DNA from: a virus | Length of the DNA stretch: 64,000 bases | Reading direction: 5' to 3' (one strand) | IMG/VR virus record: IMGVR_UViG_3300009788_000009 | Coordinates: 1 to 64,000 of that record | Part shown: in pieces, positions 48,151 through 64,000 of the stretch | Layout of the letters: the number at the start of each line of letters is the position of its first letter | Position numbering within the stretch: position 1 is the stretch's first letter | The notes under the pieces: generated by a model | Told to the model about the DNA's origin: nothing | The model's input: the letters and a program-made list of their open reading frames with translations, nothing else | The model's database searches: none | Position numbers and translations under genes: made by a program

Positions 48151-48495
48151 ATGAGACTACTACTTATTGTAGTTATGTTGTGTTTAGTAGCTCCAGTAGT
48201 ACAAGCTGAAGTAATAAACGGCTTGGTAGTAAGAGTTGTAGACAGCGACACCTATTATGTTAAGACAACTGATGGTCGTCGGCTTAAGGTAAGACTAGCA
48301 CTAGTACAGTGTGCCGAAGCAGGCACAATCAAAGGTGATAGTCTCACTCAACTCATGACTACACTACTCCTTAACCAACATGTCACCTTAGACATACATG
48401 GTCTAGGATACTACAAGAGACACATAGCACACGTATACTACCTCGATACTGACGTTAACCAATTCCTTCTAGATAACCACTGTCCACCATACTAG
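48151..48495 (+). CDS. exported staphylococcal-nuclease (TNase)-like protein
   Basis: 114 aa, AAGGAG 6 nt upstream. Residues 1-19 (MRLLLIVVMLCLVAPVVQA) are a textbook signal peptide with Ala-x-Ala-type end. The mature part follows the SNase fold: VVDSDT (Asp33 = nuc Asp21), VRL (Arg48 = Arg35), Glu56 (= Glu43), Arg90 (= Arg87), and HVYYLDTDVNQFLL at the end. The calcium ligand Asp40 of nuc is replaced by Gln53, so activity may be altered. It would act in the periplasm, on incoming or host DNA; role uncertain. Confidence 0.8.
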   Translation: MRLLLIVVMLCLVAPVVQAEVINGLVVRVVDSDTYYVKTTDGRRLKVRLALVQCAEAGTIKGDSLTQLMTTLLLNQHVTLDIHGLGYYKRHIAHVYYLDTDVNQFLLDNHCPPY

Positions 48496-48505
48496 TAAGG
48501 TTATA

Positions 48506-48629
48506 CATATGATACCCCACTATCAAGGGGTACATATTACCACTCTCCATCACCTAAGAGGATATGCGAAGATAGACATGTGATACCCCACTATCAAGGG
48601 GTACACATTACCACTCTACATCACCTAAG
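48506..48629 (+). repeat. two 53-bp direct repeats, each with a hairpin
   Basis: Copies at 48506-48558 and 48577-48629 differ at three positions. Each contains TACCCC-ACTATCAA-GGGGTA, a 6-bp stem with an 8-nt loop, and ends with ATCACCTAAG. Centre-to-centre distance is 71 bp. They lie between the nuclease gene and the next leader. They could be operators, RNA regulatory elements or recombination remnants. Confidence 0.9.
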
Positions 48630-48642
48630 GAGTACACGCTTA

Positions 48643-48702
48643 TAGCCTAGTCAGAGTAGGCTATTGGGGTAATACTACTGTTACCTGTAACTGGAGGCTA
48701 TT
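48643..48702 (+). promoter_or_regulatory. structured leader: hairpin, TTGGGGTAAT, second hairpin, RBS
   Basis: TAGCCTA/TAGGCTA stem (48643-48649 with 48657-48663), then TTGGGGTAAT at 48664-48673, then GTTAC-CT-GTAAC (48680-48691) and the ribosome site CTGGAGG before ATG 48703. The same order recurs before the 49131 and 50382 genes. Confidence 0.7.
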
Positions 48703-49062
48703 ATGTTAAGTATAGTTAAGTTAGTACGTGATCGTTTCTTTGTTGATGGTGTTGCACTTGTTGGACGGTGCGATGACATCACTAAGGAGAGTCATAGGGT
48801 TCATGAGTTGGAAGTGGAGGCAAAGAACGCTCGCCACCACCTGACTACTGATGCTACCAATGTGTTGCATGATATGGTTGTCAACATGCTTGATATAACT
48901 AAGGCTGATAATACACACACAGTCAATAGGATACCAGCTATCAAGTTGTATCGTATCATTACCAACTGTGGTCTCAAAGAAGCCAAGGATATGATTGAAG
49001 AACAGTTCATTGAACTTGGTCTGTACTGGTATCGTCCTCATGATGATGATATCCCGTTCTAG
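48703..49062 (+). CDS. 119-aa protein with L7/L12-like C-terminal motif
   Basis: Residues 77-101 read IPAIKLYRIITNCGLKEAKDMIEE, matching the K-x-x-R-x-x-T-x-x-G-L-K-E-A-K-x-x-V/I-E signature of the ribosomal protein L7/L12 C-terminal domain, the part that contacts translation factors. The N-terminal 70 residues are helical (VHELEVEAKNARHHLTTDATN) and not L12-like. It may interact with translation factors or borrow the fold for another role. ribosome site GGAGG at 48693. Confidence 0.75.
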   Translation: MLSIVKLVRDRFFVDGVALVGRCDDITKESHRVHELEVEAKNARHHLTTDATNVLHDMVVNMLDITKADNTHTVNRIPAIKLYRIITNCGLKEAKDMIEEQFIELGLYWYRPHDDDIPF

Positions 49063-49076
49063 GGTTTAATACCCTC

Positions 49077-49124
49077 CTAACCTAGCTTGCTAGGTTAGTG
49101 GGGCAATTGCGCTCGCAAAGGAGT
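49077..49124 (+). promoter_or_regulatory. structured leader with perfect palindrome, TGGGGCAAT and second hairpin
   Basis: CTAACCTAGC-TT-GCTAGGTTAG (49077-49098) is a perfect 10-bp inverted repeat. TGGGGCAAT follows at 49099-49107, then TTGCG-CT-CGCAA (49107-49118), then AAAGGAG and ATG 49131. Second hairpins here and at 48680 both have 5-bp stems with a CT loop. Confidence 0.75.
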
Positions 49125-49130
49125 TCTATC

Positions 49131-49304
49131 ATGGAACTAGCAACACATGTAGACCGAGAGGGCTACAAGCATATCGAAACAACAGTTGATCAGTACTCTA
49201 GTATTGATGAGCTGTACGAGGATCATAGTATTAGTATGATCATTGACTTCGATCAGCGTGTAGACGAAGGTGGATTTGAGTTCTTCCACATCAAAGCGTT
49301 ATGA
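49131..49304 (+). CDS. 57-aa hypothetical protein
   Basis: ATG 49131 chosen because AAAGGAG is 7 nt upstream; the upstream GTG at 49098 lies inside the leader hairpin. Acidic alpha/beta sequence (MELATHVDREGYKHIETTVD ... GGFEFFHIKAL). Function unknown. Stop overlaps the next ATG. Confidence 0.7.
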   Translation: MELATHVDREGYKHIETTVDQYSSIDELYEDHSISMIIDFDQRVDEGGFEFFHIKAL

Positions 49305-49528
49305 AGTATATAACGTTGGCATTGGGTATCTTAATGATACTCATAGGTTGGAGGGCGTGTACCTACACGCCTATCCACCTTACATCACACACCATTAGCA
49401 ACGGTGAACAGTTCACATGCATCTATGAAACAAAGGATGACTTTGAACAGGCCCAAATGGATGGCATATTCAGGGGGGATATGTTCTATGTTAACGAAGA
49501 CGGTACTAAGGAGGTACTAAGTAAATGA
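49301..49528 (+). CDS. 75-aa protein with N-terminal membrane anchor or signal
   Basis: MKYITLALGILMILIGWRACTY is a hydrophobic N-terminus that could be a signal anchor; the rest is a small soluble domain (EQFTCIYETKDDFEQAQ). Likely inner-membrane anchored, facing the periplasm. No family known. Confidence 0.7.
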   Translation: MKYITLALGILMILIGWRACTYTPIHLTSHTISNGEQFTCIYETKDDFEQAQMDGIFRGDMFYVNEDGTKEVLSK

Positions 49529-49755
49529 GTAAACTTAAAGCGAAAGAAACCAAGGTATGTAGAGAGTATGTTAACACTTACTACCCCGATAGACGAGGGT
49601 ATCTAGGTACATGCTACTACCTGGTATGGGCACTAACCTCTAAAGGTTGGTTCTATCTTAACACCAAGTTCCTCAATCCTGCTCATGCAGCAAAGATGGA
49701 GGCTAAGATACTTGGTAGTAAGATCAACACTACTAACTGGAGTACATTTATATGA
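49525..49755 (+). CDS. 76-aa hypothetical protein
   Basis: Basic, aromatic-rich (CREYVNTYYPDRRGYLGTCYYLVWALTSKGWFYL in two parts: YYPDRRGYLG and YYLVWALTSKGWFYL). ATG overlaps the preceding stop. Function unknown. Confidence 0.7.
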   Translation: MSKLKAKETKVCREYVNTYYPDRRGYLGTCYYLVWALTSKGWFYLNTKFLNPAHAAKMEAKILGSKINTTNWSTFI

Positions 49756-49931
49756 TGGAAGTATTCAGGTTAGAGATGGATCAAAACACCGATGAAGTTA
49801 AACTCATACGAGAGTATACGTATGATCAAGAGTGGATTGATAAACAGGATGAGCATAATGATTACGTTATGCTTGATATTATTAGCCCTATAAGTCATAA
49901 GGATATTGATTATGAAAGACGAAGCAGGTAA
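49752..49931 (+). CDS. 59-aa acidic hypothetical protein
   Basis: MMEVFRLEMDQNTDEVKLIR... ending DYERRSR. ATGA overlap with the preceding stop, and 20-nt overlap with the next gene. Asp/Glu-rich. Such acidic small proteins can be DNA mimics, but nothing specific supports that here. Confidence 0.6.
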   Translation: MMEVFRLEMDQNTDEVKLIREYTYDQEWIDKQDEHNDYVMLDIISPISHKDIDYERRSR

Positions 49932-50304
49932 TTGCAACCTCTGTGACAATGGTCTACGTGAGTGTAGCTGTTGTCGGGAGTGTGGCGAAGGATACAGCAT
50001 GGAACACACTACTAGAGATAACGATGGTAAGTGTTTCAGTTGTTCATTCTGGCATCAACGTTGGTGTAGGCATAAAGCCAACCCTGATACCTCGTTTATT
50101 GTTAAGGGTACTGCATACATGGTGTGTGCAGAACCCGAAGAAGGTAAGCGGCCCATCTTCCAAGGATTTGGTGGATCTAAGTTCGATATCTACCCTCATT
50201 CTGGAGGACACATTGTATCTCACAATGTATGGTGTCAAGGAGATGTTCCTGATAGGTTCAAGGATCGTCTTCCTAATAACGCTGCTTTTATCAAACCTGA
50301 CTAG
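49912..50304 (+). CDS. 130-aa Cys-rich (multi-zinc) hypothetical protein
   Basis: ATG 49912 with AAGGA 8 nt upstream. The first 60 residues have nine Cys in pairs (CNLC, CSCC, CRECG, CFSC, RWC), suggesting two zinc sites of J-domain or FYVE-like spacing. The remainder is globular (FQGFGGSKFDIYPHSGGHIVSHNVW). No family known. Followed by the leader at 50319. Confidence 0.75.
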   Translation: MKDEAGNCNLCDNGLRECSCCRECGEGYSMEHTTRDNDGKCFSCSFWHQRWCRHKANPDTSFIVKGTAYMVCAEPEEGKRPIFQGFGGSKFDIYPHSGGHIVSHNVWCQGDVPDRFKDRLPNNAAFIKPD

Positions 50305-50318
50305 CGATTAGGACACGC

Positions 50319-50381
50319 TACTAGTCACTTCAACAGAGGTGGCTAGTGGGGTAATCCTGCCCGAATAACTTAGAGGTTATT
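50319..50381 (+). promoter_or_regulatory. structured leader with TGGGGTAAT
   Basis: Stem ACTAGTCAC / GTGGCTAGT (50320-50328 with 50339-50347, one G-U pair), TGGGGTAAT at 50347-50355, then AATAAC-TTAGAG-GTTATT (50364-50381), whose loop holds the AGAGG ribosome site directly before ATG 50382. The second hairpin could hide the ribosome site. Confidence 0.72.
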
Positions 50382-50555
50382 ATGAAAGTTACAATAGATG
50401 TAGATAAGATCGTCGCTAAGGGTTCTGAACTTAGTGTACGTGGATTCCGTGGTGTGAAAGCTGTTGCACCATCGGTTAAAACCAAGGCTGTCTCATTCAA
50501 AGATCGAATGAAGGCTGCTGTTAATGCAGGCGTTAAGGCTGCAAAGGAGGCTTGA
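50382..50555 (+). CDS. 57-aa basic hypothetical protein
   Basis: MKVTIDVDKIVAKGSELSVR ... KAAVNAGVKAAKEA. Lys/Ala-rich with helical C-terminus, pI clearly basic. Similar Ala/Lys tails occur in the 52044 gene (MKITIEIGPNRIT ... VAKAA), so the two may be distant paralogs. Coupled to the next gene (TGATG). Confidence 0.68.
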   Translation: MKVTIDVDKIVAKGSELSVRGFRGVKAVAPSVKTKAVSFKDRMKAAVNAGVKAAKEA

Positions 50556-50728
50556 TGGAAGTAGTAAGTAAAATAGTATTCACACTGATACTTGGTGTGT
50601 GCTATGTTGTTGGAGCTGTCATTATATATTCATTGACAGTGTATCTCATGCTCAAGTATAGGAGATCATACGTTGAGTGTAAACACGCTGCTAACATGTG
50701 GGCGTTCATCAAGGCTACAGGAGGTTAG
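50555..50728 (+). CDS. 57-aa single-span membrane protein
   Basis: MEVVSKIVFTLILGVCYVVGAVIIYSLTVYLML is one long hydrophobic segment (about residues 7-33) followed by a basic, cytoplasm-facing tail (KYRRSYVECKH). ATG overlaps the previous stop. Function unknown. Confidence 0.7.
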   Translation: MEVVSKIVFTLILGVCYVVGAVIIYSLTVYLMLKYRRSYVECKHAANMWAFIKATGG

Positions 50729-50732
50729 CCAA

Positions 50733-51029
50733 ATGGTAATTGAATCTGGAGTCATAATATTCATTGGACTCCTCTTTATATTCGTTAAGTTTCCCAGGCA
50801 TTGGGTACTTATCGGATTAGGTTATGCTCTCTGGATAGATCTCGGAGCTGCACTCGCAGCATACGTTCTACACTGGGGCACATTCACAGGTACTATGGCA
50901 GCAGCAGTAGCAGGTCTCATGACCTCTGCAATGACTACTATAGGTCGCAGGTGGATGGGGTTCACGTTCTATAACCCTGACGCTGGAGAATGGCAGTATA
51001 AAAGAGGTTTAAGGAACCTATATAAGTAA
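50733..51029 (+). CDS. 98-aa multi-span membrane protein
   Basis: ATG 50733 with GGAGG 8 nt upstream is preferred over the in-frame 50673. Three hydrophobic segments are visible (VIIFIGLLFIFVKF, LIGLGYALWIDLGAALAAYVL, TMAAAVAGLMTSAMTTI). A holin-like or superinfection-exclusion role is possible. Last gene before a terminator. Confidence 0.75.
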   Translation: MVIESGVIIFIGLLFIFVKFPRHWVLIGLGYALWIDLGAALAAYVLHWGTFTGTMAAAVAGLMTSAMTTIGRRWMGFTFYNPDAGEWQYKRGLRNLYK

Positions 51030-51043
51030 TACTGTCACTTGTG

Positions 51044-51070
51044 GGGCCTCGAAAGAGGCCCTACTTTTTT
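51044..51070 (+). terminator. Rho-independent terminator with GAAA loop
   Basis: GGGCCTC-GAAA-GAGGCCC (51044-51061) followed by TACTTTTTT. It ends the 48151-51029 operon. Confidence 0.92.
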
Positions 51071-51100
51071 GGCTACGTAATGGTCACTAAAGTAACCACA

Positions 51101-51180
51101 CTCGCGCTACGCGCTTCGTTCTCCTCGCTTCGCTCGTCGTAAGTGGAAAACCTCGCGCTACGCGACTTCGGTTCTCCACA
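51101..51180. repeat. GC-rich palindromic repeat pair
   Basis: CTCGCGCTACGCG is present twice (51101 and 51152), each followed by CTTCG or ACTTCGG and TTCTCC. The second copy is inside a long hairpin: GTGGAAAACC (51143-51152) pairs with GGTTCTCCAC (51170-51179), and TCGCG-CTA-CGCGA inside. Composition is far more GC-rich than the surroundings and resembles the REP/BIME-like palindromes of bacterial chromosomes. Also nearby: imperfect palindrome TGGTCACT-AA-AGTAACCA at 51081-51098. Confidence 0.75.
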
Positions 51181-51251
51181 TTGTCTCCGACGGGGGCTAG
51201 GTATTAGGTGCATATGTTGTATATGTAATGTAACTTAACTGGAGATAGATA

Positions 51252-53159: not shown

Positions 53160-53522
53160 GAGTTCGTGACAACAATCGTAATGTAACCATAAAAGGCTAC
53201 CGTTTTGACCCCTGACTCAAAAAAAGTGAGACAAACGAGTCTTTTGAGTCATTTGTCTCAGCAAAGTAAGACAGAATTTGTTATACTAAACAAGTACTTA
53301 AACCCATTGTCTTAAAAAACTTACTTTTAACCCTACTCCCTATAGAATCATACTATTTTGTTACATATAGCCACTATCATAGATAAATATCTTAGTTCAA
53401 ATATAATAAGTGAGTCTTTTAAGACAAAAGGCTTAAGCTCTTGATTTCATGGGGGTATTCTGTCTCAGTAAGGTGAGACAAACGACTCAGTTGTCTCGAA
53501 ACTCTTAACGTAGGAGATAAGT
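53160..53522. promoter_or_regulatory. iteron-like TGAGACAAA cluster in a non-coding gap (candidate origin or operator array)
   Basis: 363 nt without a gene. Half-sites: GTGAGACAAA 53226 and 53473, TTTGTCTCA 53252-53260, TAAGACAGA 53267, TTGTCTTA 53307-53314, TTAAGACAAAA 53419, TGTCTCA 53461, TTGTCTCG 53491. Two perfect inverted pairs: TGAGACAAA/TTTGTCTCA (53227 and 53252) and TGTCTCA/TGAGACA (53461 and 53474). Six GANTC sites lie in the same stretch. The middle (53281-53410) is very AT-rich. Consistent with a replication origin or a multi-site repressor operator. Confidence 0.7.
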
Positions 53523-57370: not shown

Positions 57371-57742
57371 ATGAGAAATTTTGAAGGTTCTTCATGGACT
57401 GATCAATTAGACGCATGTTCCTATGCTGTAACCATCGAACAAGTTAGAAAAGAAATGCATGAAAAAGGTGGTATGCTATACAATAATGAAAACGAGTGGA
57501 GTAATTCAGATAAAAAGATCTTAAAATCAAGGCAAATTAAAAGTACTTTAACAGGTAGGTTCCATACCAAAGCAGGACAATTCTGGACAAAAGATGATGA
57601 AAAATGTCTAAAAGTAATGTTTCAAAATGGTAAGTCACGACATAACATTGCTAAACGTCTACAACGTACCCTTGGTGCAATTGAAGCAAGACTAATGAAA
57701 CTTGAACTTATAGACAATCCACATAAACAAAAAAGGTATTAA
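57371..57742 (+). CDS. SANT/Myb-like DNA-binding protein A
   Basis: 123 aa. The C-terminal 50 residues read FWTKDDEKCLKVMFQNGKSRHNIAKRLQRTLGAIEARLMKL: a Myb/SANT-type tri-helix with the W-T-x-x-D/E-E opening and the I-A-x-x-L-x-R-T-x-x-A-I-x-x-R-L-x-x-L recognition helix. The N-terminal 70 residues are charged and not recognised. A second protein with the same C-terminal fold is encoded on the other side of the structured RNA (58305-58769). The pair may bind DNA or the RNA between them. Confidence 0.82.
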   Translation: MRNFEGSSWTDQLDACSYAVTIEQVRKEMHEKGGMLYNNENEWSNSDKKILKSRQIKSTLTGRFHTKAGQFWTKDDEKCLKVMFQNGKSRHNIAKRLQRTLGAIEARLMKLELIDNPHKQKRY

Positions 57743-57749
57743 AGAAGGA

Positions 57750-58214
57750 AGTCGCTTTGCCAAGTTACAGACTGACTGAGATAACAAGCTAACTTGGGAG
57801 TAAAGTACTGCTCAAAAAAGACTTAGGAAAGCTTGGAAGTAAGCTATTCAACTTAGACATTCAAAGAACAGTTGACAATTGAGCCTGCCCTTTATGGCAA
57901 ACAGATTAGGTCTGTTGGCTCACAAGTAGAGTCGAGAAGTCAACCGGCGTATGGAGTCCGTTCTACTGCTCCTTAAGTAGTTATGGTGTTCTGCTTAACC
58001 TTTTTACGACACGATTCTAATAAAGTGGATAGTAACTTTAAAGGCAACTAAAAACACCTAAATCAATAGGCGTAGCAGTTATGGGACTCCTGCAAGTACA
58101 AGTGAATGTGTCAGGCCGGTAAGAACGGTGAGGCTTCTGGAGTGGAGTATCTCCACACAAACAGATGTAACTCTCAAAATTATTTAGATAGTGTAGCGAA
58201 CTATTCGCCTTTTA
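57750..58214 (+). ncRNA. candidate large structured RNA (about 465 nt), unclassified
   Basis: No reading frame longer than a few codons; many perfect helices. Seen: CCAAGTT/AACTTGG (57760, 57791); AGCTT/AAGCT (57830, 57841); a gap-free three-way junction with TGAGCC/GGCTCA (57880-57885, 57917-57922), TGCC/GGCA (57886, 57896) and AACAGA/TCTGTT (57900, 57911); AGTAGA/TCTACT (57925, 57962); TTAAGTAG/CTGCTTAA (57973, 57991); TAAAGT/ACTTTA (58021, 58035); CCTA/TAGG (58057, 58067); GTGGAG-TAT-CTCCAC (58142-58156); and GCGAA-CTA-TTCGC followed by CTTTTAATT (58196-58214), which looks like a weak terminator. Composition is less AT-rich than the flanking genes. It does not match tmRNA, tRNA or a group I intron that I can recognise; large phage RNAs such as GOLLD or ROOL are possible relatives. 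Ends are approximate. Confidence 0.7.
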
Positions 58215-58217
58215 ATT

Positions 58218-58286
58218 GAGTAGGTGGACCTCCTGAAAAGTCCCCCTCCCTACCCACCTGCTCTATCATGATAATGGGGAGGGGGG
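58218..58286 (+). promoter_or_regulatory. H-type pseudoknot upstream of SANT protein B
   Basis: Stem A: GAGTAGGTGG (58218-58227) with CCACCTGCTC (58254-58263), 10 bp with one G-U. Stem B: CCCCCTCCC (58242-58250, in the loop of stem A) with GGGAGGGGG (58277-58285), 9 bp, all Watson-Crick. The right arm of B is 7 nt before the AAAGGA ribosome site. It may be the 3' domain of the RNA at 57750-58214 or a separate translational regulator. Confidence 0.65.
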
Positions 58287-58304
58287 CACTTAAAGGAAAT
58301 GGAA

Positions 58305-58769
58305 ATGGAAATTGATACTACTCTTAAACCTATAGCTATGATAGATGGAGCCAATCCTACAGAAGTTATGTACTTTGGCACTGTCATGGAAGCTCAAGAC
58401 TTCGTTGAAAAAGCTTCTAGTGATAGCGACACCATAACCAGAGCACATATCTATAGTTTATACTCTGTAGGTGAACCTGTACGATCCTTTGGATGGAAAT
58501 TACAGACTGATACAGCTACTAATTTACGAGAAACAGGTAAAGTTAAACCTGCTCGTAAAGGTGGATGGACAGTAAGAGAAGAAGATTTACTAAGAGCAGC
58601 CGTTAAAGATGGACTTGGTAATTCTGCTATTGCTAAACAACTTCATAGAAGTGTGGGTTCTGTATACCAAAAATCTGTTAAACTTGGTATTAAAGGTGGT
58701 GAAAAAAAACCTAGAACAGCTAGACAACAAATTGAAGACTTAAAGAACAAACCTAAAAATATATGGTGA
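58305..58769 (+). CDS. SANT/Myb-like DNA-binding protein B
   Basis: 154 aa from ATG 58305, chosen over 58299 because AAAGGA (58292-58297) is then 7 nt away. The segment GGWTVREEDLLRAAVKDGLGNSAIAKQLHRSVGSVYQKSVKLG has the W-T-x-x-E-x-x-L-L-x-x-x-V opening and I-A-x-x-L-x-R-S-x-x-S-V recognition helix of SANT/Myb-like domains, as in the 57371 gene. The N-terminal 85 residues are acidic and unrelated. The C-terminus is basic (KKPRTARQQIEDLKNKPKN). Confidence 0.83.
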   Translation: MEIDTTLKPIAMIDGANPTEVMYFGTVMEAQDFVEKASSDSDTITRAHIYSLYSVGEPVRSFGWKLQTDTATNLRETGKVKPARKGGWTVREEDLLRAAVKDGLGNSAIAKQLHRSVGSVYQKSVKLGIKGGEKKPRTARQQIEDLKNKPKNIW

Positions 58770-62221: not shown

Positions 62222-64000
62222 ATGGAGTTAACTTTCCTAGAGGCTAAAGAACCTCTAACAAAGTATATATCAAGCACCGATGTTAAACCATACCCACATG
62301 CCAAATTCCTGACTTCATATGAAGAAAGCGTAACTACACCCTTTCAGTTATTCGATGCTATAAAAGATCATGCCAGTCTTGATCATGCTCTACTAAAAGG
62401 TTCCCTCGTTCGAAATATTCGTAACGAAAGCCGAGCAGGGTTAACAAATACTCAAGAAGCTACTAAATGGCTATGCCTTGATATAGATGGACTAGAGGGG
62501 TTTTCTGTAAAACAGTTAGTCCACCAATTAGGTTTTGAAGACATATCACATACTATACAATACTCTGCTACTAGTGGTTTATTCAAAAATACCTCCTTAA
62601 AAGTACATCTATTCTTCTTACTCGAAGACGAGATATCCCCTGACTTCATGCATGACTGGTTAACCTGGCTAAATTTCCAATTCTTTAAATCTCATATTAA
62701 ACTTAATCCTGCCGGTACTACTCTACATTATCCTGTTGATCCTACATTATGTCAAAATTCTAGGCTCATATTCATTGCTCCACCTAATTTTGAAAACGAT
62801 AATCTTGATCCATATTCAGGATCACGCATATCATTACAAAAGTGTGAAGAGGATTATTTAGCTATACCAGATGTAACTATATTACCTACTCGTACTAAAC
62901 TACAAAATGAAGCTAAAACTTTAATTAAAAAACTACGTAAAGCAGAGGGTTTACCAGAAACAAAAACCCCTAAATTCGTAACATCATCATTAGGACTAGA
63001 AATTTGCTCTAATCCAGAATCAGCCCGCGTAACAGGTGTTAAAGAAAATGGAGGGTTTGTATATCTTAATATAAACGGGGGCGATAGTTGGGGCTACTAT
63101 CATAAGGACAATAATTATAAATATATATATAACTTCAAAGGAGAGCCTGTATATCCTACAGAGAAATTCCTACCTGATTACTGGCGTACTGAGGCTATAC
63201 CTAAACAATCAGTTAAAACTCCTGCACCAGATGGTTTATATTACTTTGGCTTTCAAGATGAAGCTACTAGTAAACTATGGTATGGTAGTTGGAACCCCAC
63301 TTCATTAGCTATGAAGTTAACTAACGCAGGTGCTAATGAAACCTCAGTACGAAGATTCCTTAAACATAATAATAAAGAGATTGATATGTTACCAGTATGG
63401 AATCTTGTCTATGATCCTACACCTTCTGCAACCATAGGTATAGATACTAAAATCGGATATGTAAATTCTTACCAACCTGCTTCTATACCTGCAATGAGAA
63501 GTACACATAAAAAGAGAGGACTACCTAAATCAATAACTATATTCTTAGATCATGTTGTTAACTATGATAAAGAAGTTGCAAACCACTTTTTAAATTGGGT
63601 TGCATACGTTGTTCAGTTTCGAACAAGAGCTAATACTTCTTGGTTAATGTTTGGAACACAAGGAACCGGGAAAGGTGTTCTGTTCTCTAACATTTTGCGT
63701 CCCTTAGTTGGGGAGCAGAACGCTTCTCTCGTCACTATACAAAACGTAGCAGAGAAATTTACAGATACAACAGATGATAAAATTCTTGTTATGGTAGACG
63801 AAGTAAGTCGTAACGAGTTTAACCATAACAAAGGGCTAATGAATCGTATCAAAGCAATGGTAACAGATGATAAAACTATATCACGTAAGTTTTCATGCCC
63901 ACCTATACCAGTGAATAATCACTGTAATTTTATATTTACTTCTAATGAAATTATACCAATGGATATACCAGTCAATGATAGAAGGTTCAATGTAGCACCA
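62222..64000 (+). CDS. primase-helicase: AEP-type primase plus SF3/D5-like helicase (3' end outside window)
   Basis: 593 residues are visible and the frame is open to the window end. AAGGA lies 7 nt before ATG 62222. N-terminal primase-like part: KWLCLDIDGL (Asp87, Asp89) and, after an ATSG stretch, KVHLFF (His129), the DxD ... H pattern of archaeo-eukaryotic primases. Residues 478-485 are GTQGTGKG (Walker A), 522-529 ILVMVDEV (Walker B, Asp526-Glu527), and NFIFTSNE carries Asn575 (SF3 motif C). It would unwind the fork and prime synthesis for the family A polymerase at 5035. The gene continues beyond the window, presumably into the rest of the replication module. Confidence 0.92.
   Translation, partial: MELTFLEAKEPLTKYISSTDVKPYPHAKFLTSYEESVTTPFQLFDAIKDHASLDHALLKGSLVRNIRNESRAGLTNTQEATKWLCLDIDGLEGFSVKQLVHQLGFEDISHTIQYSATSGLFKNTSLKVHLFFLLEDEISPDFMHDWLTWLNFQFFKSHIKLNPAGTTLHYPVDPTLCQNSRLIFIAPPNFENDNLDPYSGSRISLQKCEEDYLAIPDVTILPTRTKLQNEAKTLIKKLRKAEGLPETKTPKFVTSSLGLEICSNPESARVTGVKENGGFVYLNINGGDSWGYYHKDNNYKYIYNFKGEPVYPTEKFLPDYWRTEAIPKQSVKTPAPDGLYYFGFQDEATSKLWYGSWNPTSLAMKLTNAGANETSVRRFLKHNNKEIDMLPVWNLVYDPTPSATIGIDTKIGYVNSYQPASIPAMRSTHKKRGLPKSITIFLDHVVNYDKEVANHFLNWVAYVVQFRTRANTSWLMFGTQGTGKGVLFSNILRPLVGEQNASLVTIQNVAEKFTDTTDDKILVMVDEVSRNEFNHNKGLMNRIKAMVTDDKTISRKFSCPPIPVNNHCNFIFTSNEIIPMDIPVNDRRFNVAP

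Follow-up and report, generated by a model that had tools for sequence, protein, structure and literature searches.

Comparative sequence evidence for a compact, uncatalogued phage RNA with two interlocked pseudoknots

The window analysed here, a DNA stretch of 64,000 nucleotides, comprises positions 1–64000 of a 67,933-bp virus record, whose terminase and major capsid protein share 39% and 58% identity, respectively, with their counterparts in Pseudomonas phage KPP25. Between two genes for HTH/SANT-like proteins it carries a gap of 556 nt, reported as gene-free in a first-pass annotation and indeed devoid, on both strands, of any ORF longer than 45 amino acids (Table 1). From 48 kb to the window end this gap is the longest run without a plus-strand ORF of at least 45 amino acids, the second-longest measuring 363 nt, and its GC content is 0.43 compared to 0.33–0.38 in the adjoining genes. 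Comparison of all six frames with PHROGs yielded nothing that resembles a degraded protein. The flanking proteins have one HTH segment in common (28% identity over 53 amino acids), and both match PHROG 323 (D5-like regulators) weakly; tblastn of either protein against named phages found no relative. For the downstream gene the start at 58305 is better placed, with AAGGA 7 nt upstream. Elsewhere in the window, GTCTCA/TGAGAC-type repeats together with inverted repeats were observed at 53223–53498, in 363 nt without ORFs that may represent an operator region or an origin, and two 57-nt direct repeats of 93% identity at 48502–48629.

The gap had been read as a large structured RNA on account of at least nine helices. 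These weigh little alone, since the single-sequence folding of the gap is ordinary for this genome: the fold z of the whole gap, about −2.2 to −2.7, compares with a mean of −1.66 (sd 1.79) for 471-nt windows over 48.0–63.5 kb, and several other stretches of that region fold with far lower z. Within the gap, 200-nt windows range from +0.94 to −1.71, and the core RNA described below reaches −1.14 by itself. The reported 3′ stem-loop with a U-tract is at chance level, because two terminator-like hairpins were observed in the gap versus 1.4 in shuffled sequences; a further hairpin near the 3′ end lacks a U-tract. Fold prediction also suggests a helix closing the core, analogous to stems seen at the homologous loci L073 and L089, and an extension domain. 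Two motifs noticed by eye, one close to an 11-nt tetraloop receptor and one resembling the L12 loop of RNase P, were dropped as lying outside the conserved core. Local folding in the part of the window that was scanned is strongest at 63601–63800 (z −5.17), and many 200-nt windows in 48200–51200, mostly small-ORF sequence, have a fold z below −2.4.

Judged from the sequences, the evidence for a structured RNA is comparative covariation, and it applies to approximately 57871–57972 rather than to the full 560 nt. The first homologue was a 41-nt blastn match (E = 0.1, in a search to E = 10) located in an unannotated 506-nt gap of Rhodobacter phage RcRudolph; common helices with compensatory changes prompted two pattern scans of viral contigs. 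The first viral pattern, CGGTAAGAACGGTGAGGC, matched nothing. After removal of chance matches (L256, L261, L262, L264, L267 and L268, which fitted the model only partially), 21 distinct copies were obtained from about 19 phage lineages and at least 20 otherwise different phages. As the search required the seed GUCGAGAAG, the invariance of this seed is no evidence, whereas pairings outside it are. Among the matches listed, those of a pattern scan of genome contigs had the appearance of coding DNA and were rejected. The records reached via the flanking proteins, the exonuclease, DUF7448 or the terminase held no copy of the RNA, and the gaps of KPP25 and phiA008 are unlike that of the window. The family is not circular, because model R2, built with the window and RcRudolph left out, still recovers both (window, 57894–57985, 63.4 bits, E = 7.4e-15; RcRudolph, E = 2.7e-17), the next-best match having E = 0.43.

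In alignment A2, 95.5% of the cells of helices A, B, C and D are paired as opposed to 71% in shuffles, and the covariation score of 0.646 (0.169 in shuffles) was reached by none of 500 shuffles; the four helices thus covary strongly. Slid controls did not exceed 0.103, and the covariation was unchanged with the window, RcRudolph and L266 left out. Helix A forms five of five pairs in every copy, with exchanges among U-A, A-U and C-G and among A-U, G-U and G-C; pseudoknot B does so as well, with a sequence that differs in most copies. Helix C is built from CGCC/GGCG in place of CGGC/GCCG in L259 and L263, while pseudoknot D, 4–6 bp of differing sequence, is present throughout, its placement being weakest in L266. 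The pairing order A B A′ C D C′ B′ D′ implies two pseudoknots. A 6-mer matching A′ lies upstream in most homologues, at −24 to −29 or −36 to −46; pairing of this strand (A0) with A′ closes the three-way junction, which was correctly noted at 57880–57922 and belongs to the conserved RNA. By eye, L073, L089 and L110 adopt the same junction layout, there with GNRA loops. Since the XXGRC strand is complementary to both the upstream strand and A′, it can take A′ instead and two states are possible. That 57871–57972 is a conserved structured RNA appears virtually certain. The description of the gap RNA as structured thus holds; as to its large size, conservation is demonstrated for about 100 nt only, and the surrounding ~450 nt, for which no homologous sequence was found, may include an extension domain but are without comparative support.

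Table 1. Features of the gap, its flanking genes and the RNA core (window coordinates except for the last row)
Feature	Position	Strand	Basis
Upstream HTH/SANT-like gene	57371–57742	+	ORF and PHROGs comparison
ORF-free gap, flanked by the HTH/SANT-like genes	57743–58298	+	ORF list; protein remnant absent
Downstream HTH/SANT-like gene	58299–58769	+	ORF and PHROGs comparison
Possible closing helix, AGAACA 57865–57870 / UGUUCU 57987–57992	57865–57992	+	Fold prediction only
Conserved core RNA, A0 to D′	57871–57972	+	R2 match and covariation, 21 distinct phage copies
A0, GUUGAC, outer helix with 57939–57944	57871–57876	+	Upstream 6-mer in homologues
Three-way junction	57881–57921	+	Sequence pairing; similar layout elsewhere
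Junction helix GAGCC/GGCUC	57881–57885/57917–57921	+	
Junction helix UGCC/GGCA	57886–57889/57896–57899	+	
Junction helix AACAGA/UCUGUU	57900–57905/57911–57916	+	
GGUCUG, invariant in 21/21 copies	57909–57914	+	Alignment
Helix A 5′ strand (XXGRC), can pair alternatively with 57939–57943	57915–57919	+	Alignment pairing
Pseudoknot B 5′ strand GUAGA, with UCUAC 57962–57966	57926–57930	+	Alignment pairing
Unpaired GUCGAGAA, search seed	57931–57938	+	Invariance partly by selection
A′ strand GUCAAC	57939–57944	+	Pairing with A or A0
Helix C, CGG 57945–57947 with CCG 57958–57960	57945–57960	+	Covariation
Pseudoknot D 5′ strand GGAGU, in loop of C, with GCUCC 57968–57972	57953–57957	+	Covariation
Pseudoknot B 3′ strand UCUAC	57962–57966	+	Covariation
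Pseudoknot D 3′ strand GCUCC	57968–57972	+	Pairing in 21 copies
Possible extension domain	57993–58213	+	Fold prediction only
13-bp G/C-run hairpin near gap 3′ end, without U-tract	58240–58287	+	Pairing probability 0.98
Exchangeable arm in near-identical RNA locus	L079 296–376; counterpart in L090		

Rfam, searched at the gathering threshold and up to E = 10, gave nothing credible in the window, and for 11 homologue loci the Rfam listing has no family at the position of the element. In agreement with the original label of an unclassified RNA, the family is thus uncatalogued. Its compact core contains two interlocked pseudoknots and is joined by an upstream arm.

Each of 21 records, 3–350 kb in size, contains exactly one match. 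KPP25, phiA008, RcSimone-Hastad and other relatives searched hold no copy, the motif is missing from 754 alpha- and gammaproteobacterial genomes scanned, and a plasmid scan matched nothing. Because RcRudolph is the only match, and hence the only named carrier, found by blastn with six cores against 50,697 phage records, the biology of the element is known from metagenomes. With the cores masked, the loci have DNA in common only between L073 and L089, in the arm of L073 and L079, and in short matches among the tRNA loci. At six loci (L077, L082, L101, L129, L134 and L263) a same-strand tRNA gene starts 59–65 nt after the core GRC, the element end and the next tRNA being 3–8 nt apart; in L082, L101 and L129 a second tRNA ends just upstream and the core occupies the tRNA–tRNA spacer. 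The window copy is not near tRNA genes. A tRNA-Pro gene directly follows the element in L082, L101 and L134, three of the six cases, and L101 carries a group I intron (77–317; RF00028, 56.5 bits) in its tRNA array, away from the element. In RcRudolph the copy is situated directly 3′ of the permuted tmRNA coding piece; since the same tmRNA stands without the element in RcSimone-Hastad, about 293 nt in RcRudolph represent a clean insertion. The annotated hypothetical protein RCRUDOLPH_61 (L069 3584–3919) overlies this permuted tmRNA with the tag ANDNVRMDAQALAA, and its translation ends in the tag. Other copies lie, by eye, upstream of ORFs or of terminator-like sequence.

An element acting at the DNA level, as origin, packaging site or transposon end, would suit the clean insertion in RcRudolph; however, pair 25–47 of helix A takes G-U besides A-U and G-C, which argues for RNA rather than DNA, and the core is co-directional with the tRNA gene in all six tRNA-adjacent records, so that we regard this reading as scarcely credible. 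Very improbable, too, is the ribonucleoprotein or RNA-regulated system of the RNA and its two flanking HTH/SANT-like proteins put forward in the first-pass annotation: these genes adjoin the RNA in the window, but at the homologue loci, where most neighbours were judged by eye, no SANT-type neighbour was identified among the tRNAs, tmRNA, terminase-like and other genes present.

Long forms with variable arms are found in L073, L089, L079 and L090. Identity between the loci L079 and L090 amounts to 99% across the core and 97% in the downstream part, but only to 27% in the arm bounded by GUGUUGGUG and CACCAACA, which measures 81 versus 111 nt. L073 and L089 have framework blocks in common and differ in two arms, and the L079-type arm is also present in L073. 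This shows that arms of the long forms are swapped between near-identical phages, which fits the expectation for something under changing selection. The long forms and the proximity of a phage RNA to tRNA genes might be reconciled with the core being one domain of a large GOLLD/ROOL-like cage or scaffold RNA. Such an assignment appears improbable, as the two tRNAs bordering the element of L082 leave it no more than 95 nt and neither GOLLD nor ROOL is matched in Rfam.

We favour, as on balance probable, an uncatalogued small structured phage RNA that is stable and acts in trans. The trans-acting mechanism itself is proposed more tentatively; it is suggested by the single copy per genome and the varied neighbours, features that would be compatible with a cis element too. 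The stable RNA would be produced by plus-strand operon transcription, its ends being generated by RNase P and tRNA 3′-end processing where it lies between tRNAs and set by a terminator elsewhere. The structured RNA would constitute the working form, in which the invariant unpaired GGUCUG, CUCACA, GUCGAGAA and CGU might build up a tertiary core or a putative site for binding a conserved component of the host, most likely one from its translation or RNA-processing machinery.

Alternatively, the element may represent a new class of small self-cleaving ribozymes that cut phage transcripts in cis between tRNAs, in leaders or before terminators. Its size of ca. 85–100 nt, the double pseudoknot with nearly invariant unpaired residues, the dual complementarity of strand XX and the lack of an identified protein partner among varying neighbours are compatible with this possibility, and ribozymes associated with phage tRNAs have precedent (PMC10879173). 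However, no conserved cleavage junction is evident at the edges of the element, a single copy is present even beside 33 tRNAs in one locus, and the Rfam ribozyme models are unmatched; we therefore consider self-cleavage unlikely. Marginally less likely still is the notion that a new class of catalytic, self-cleaving RNA, in which a strand-exchange arm adjoins a double-pseudoknot core, has spread among phages, some members carrying exchangeable arms. A cis-acting transcription element is also conceivable. The put RNAs of HK022 modify RNA polymerase and thereby give terminator read-through, and the position of the element, within untranslated stretches and 5′ of tRNA genes, would be appropriate for such a role; its prospects appear slim in view of the terminator-like sequence directly 3′ of the element in L076 and L266 (by eye), the antisense ORF overlapping downstream in L257 and the presence of one copy per record.

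The HDV fold is a nested double pseudoknot with its own pairing order, from which that of the element differs, and HDV-type Rfam models matched neither the window nor the 11 homologue loci. The HDV-like theta ribozymes, which belong to the phage tRNA-associated ribozymes (PMC10879173), are likewise compact, pseudoknotted and located beside phage tRNA genes. Their cleavage site lies at the 3′ end of a tRNA (PMC10879173), whereas the element borders the following tRNA on its 5′ side and occurs once per record. The group I intron model RF00028 has no match in the window up to E = 10. The element is without tmRNA features, although it adjoins the permuted tmRNA in RcRudolph, and ARAGORN and Rfam detected no tmRNA in the window. 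The tRNA cluster of T4 encodes the small stable RNAs species 1 and 2, of unknown function, which are likewise small phage RNAs with a tRNA cluster; at the sequence level, the six-core blastn search gave no T4-type match. GOLLD and ROOL are structured RNAs carried by phages, have no known function and are frequently situated close to tRNA islands (PMC12286853), a location resembling that of the element in the six tRNA-adjacent records and differing from that in the window. GOLLD, in a further resemblance, consists of one conserved and one less conserved part. The covariance models of GOLLD and ROOL match neither the window nor the 11 homologue loci. Unlike these RNAs of more than 600–800 nt, the new family shares only a short pseudoknotted core of about 100 nt. 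Phage biology gains an uncatalogued family of RNAs whose pseudoknot fold is supported by covariation, and with it a compact system for testing the as yet unexplained association of structured phage RNAs with tRNA clusters.
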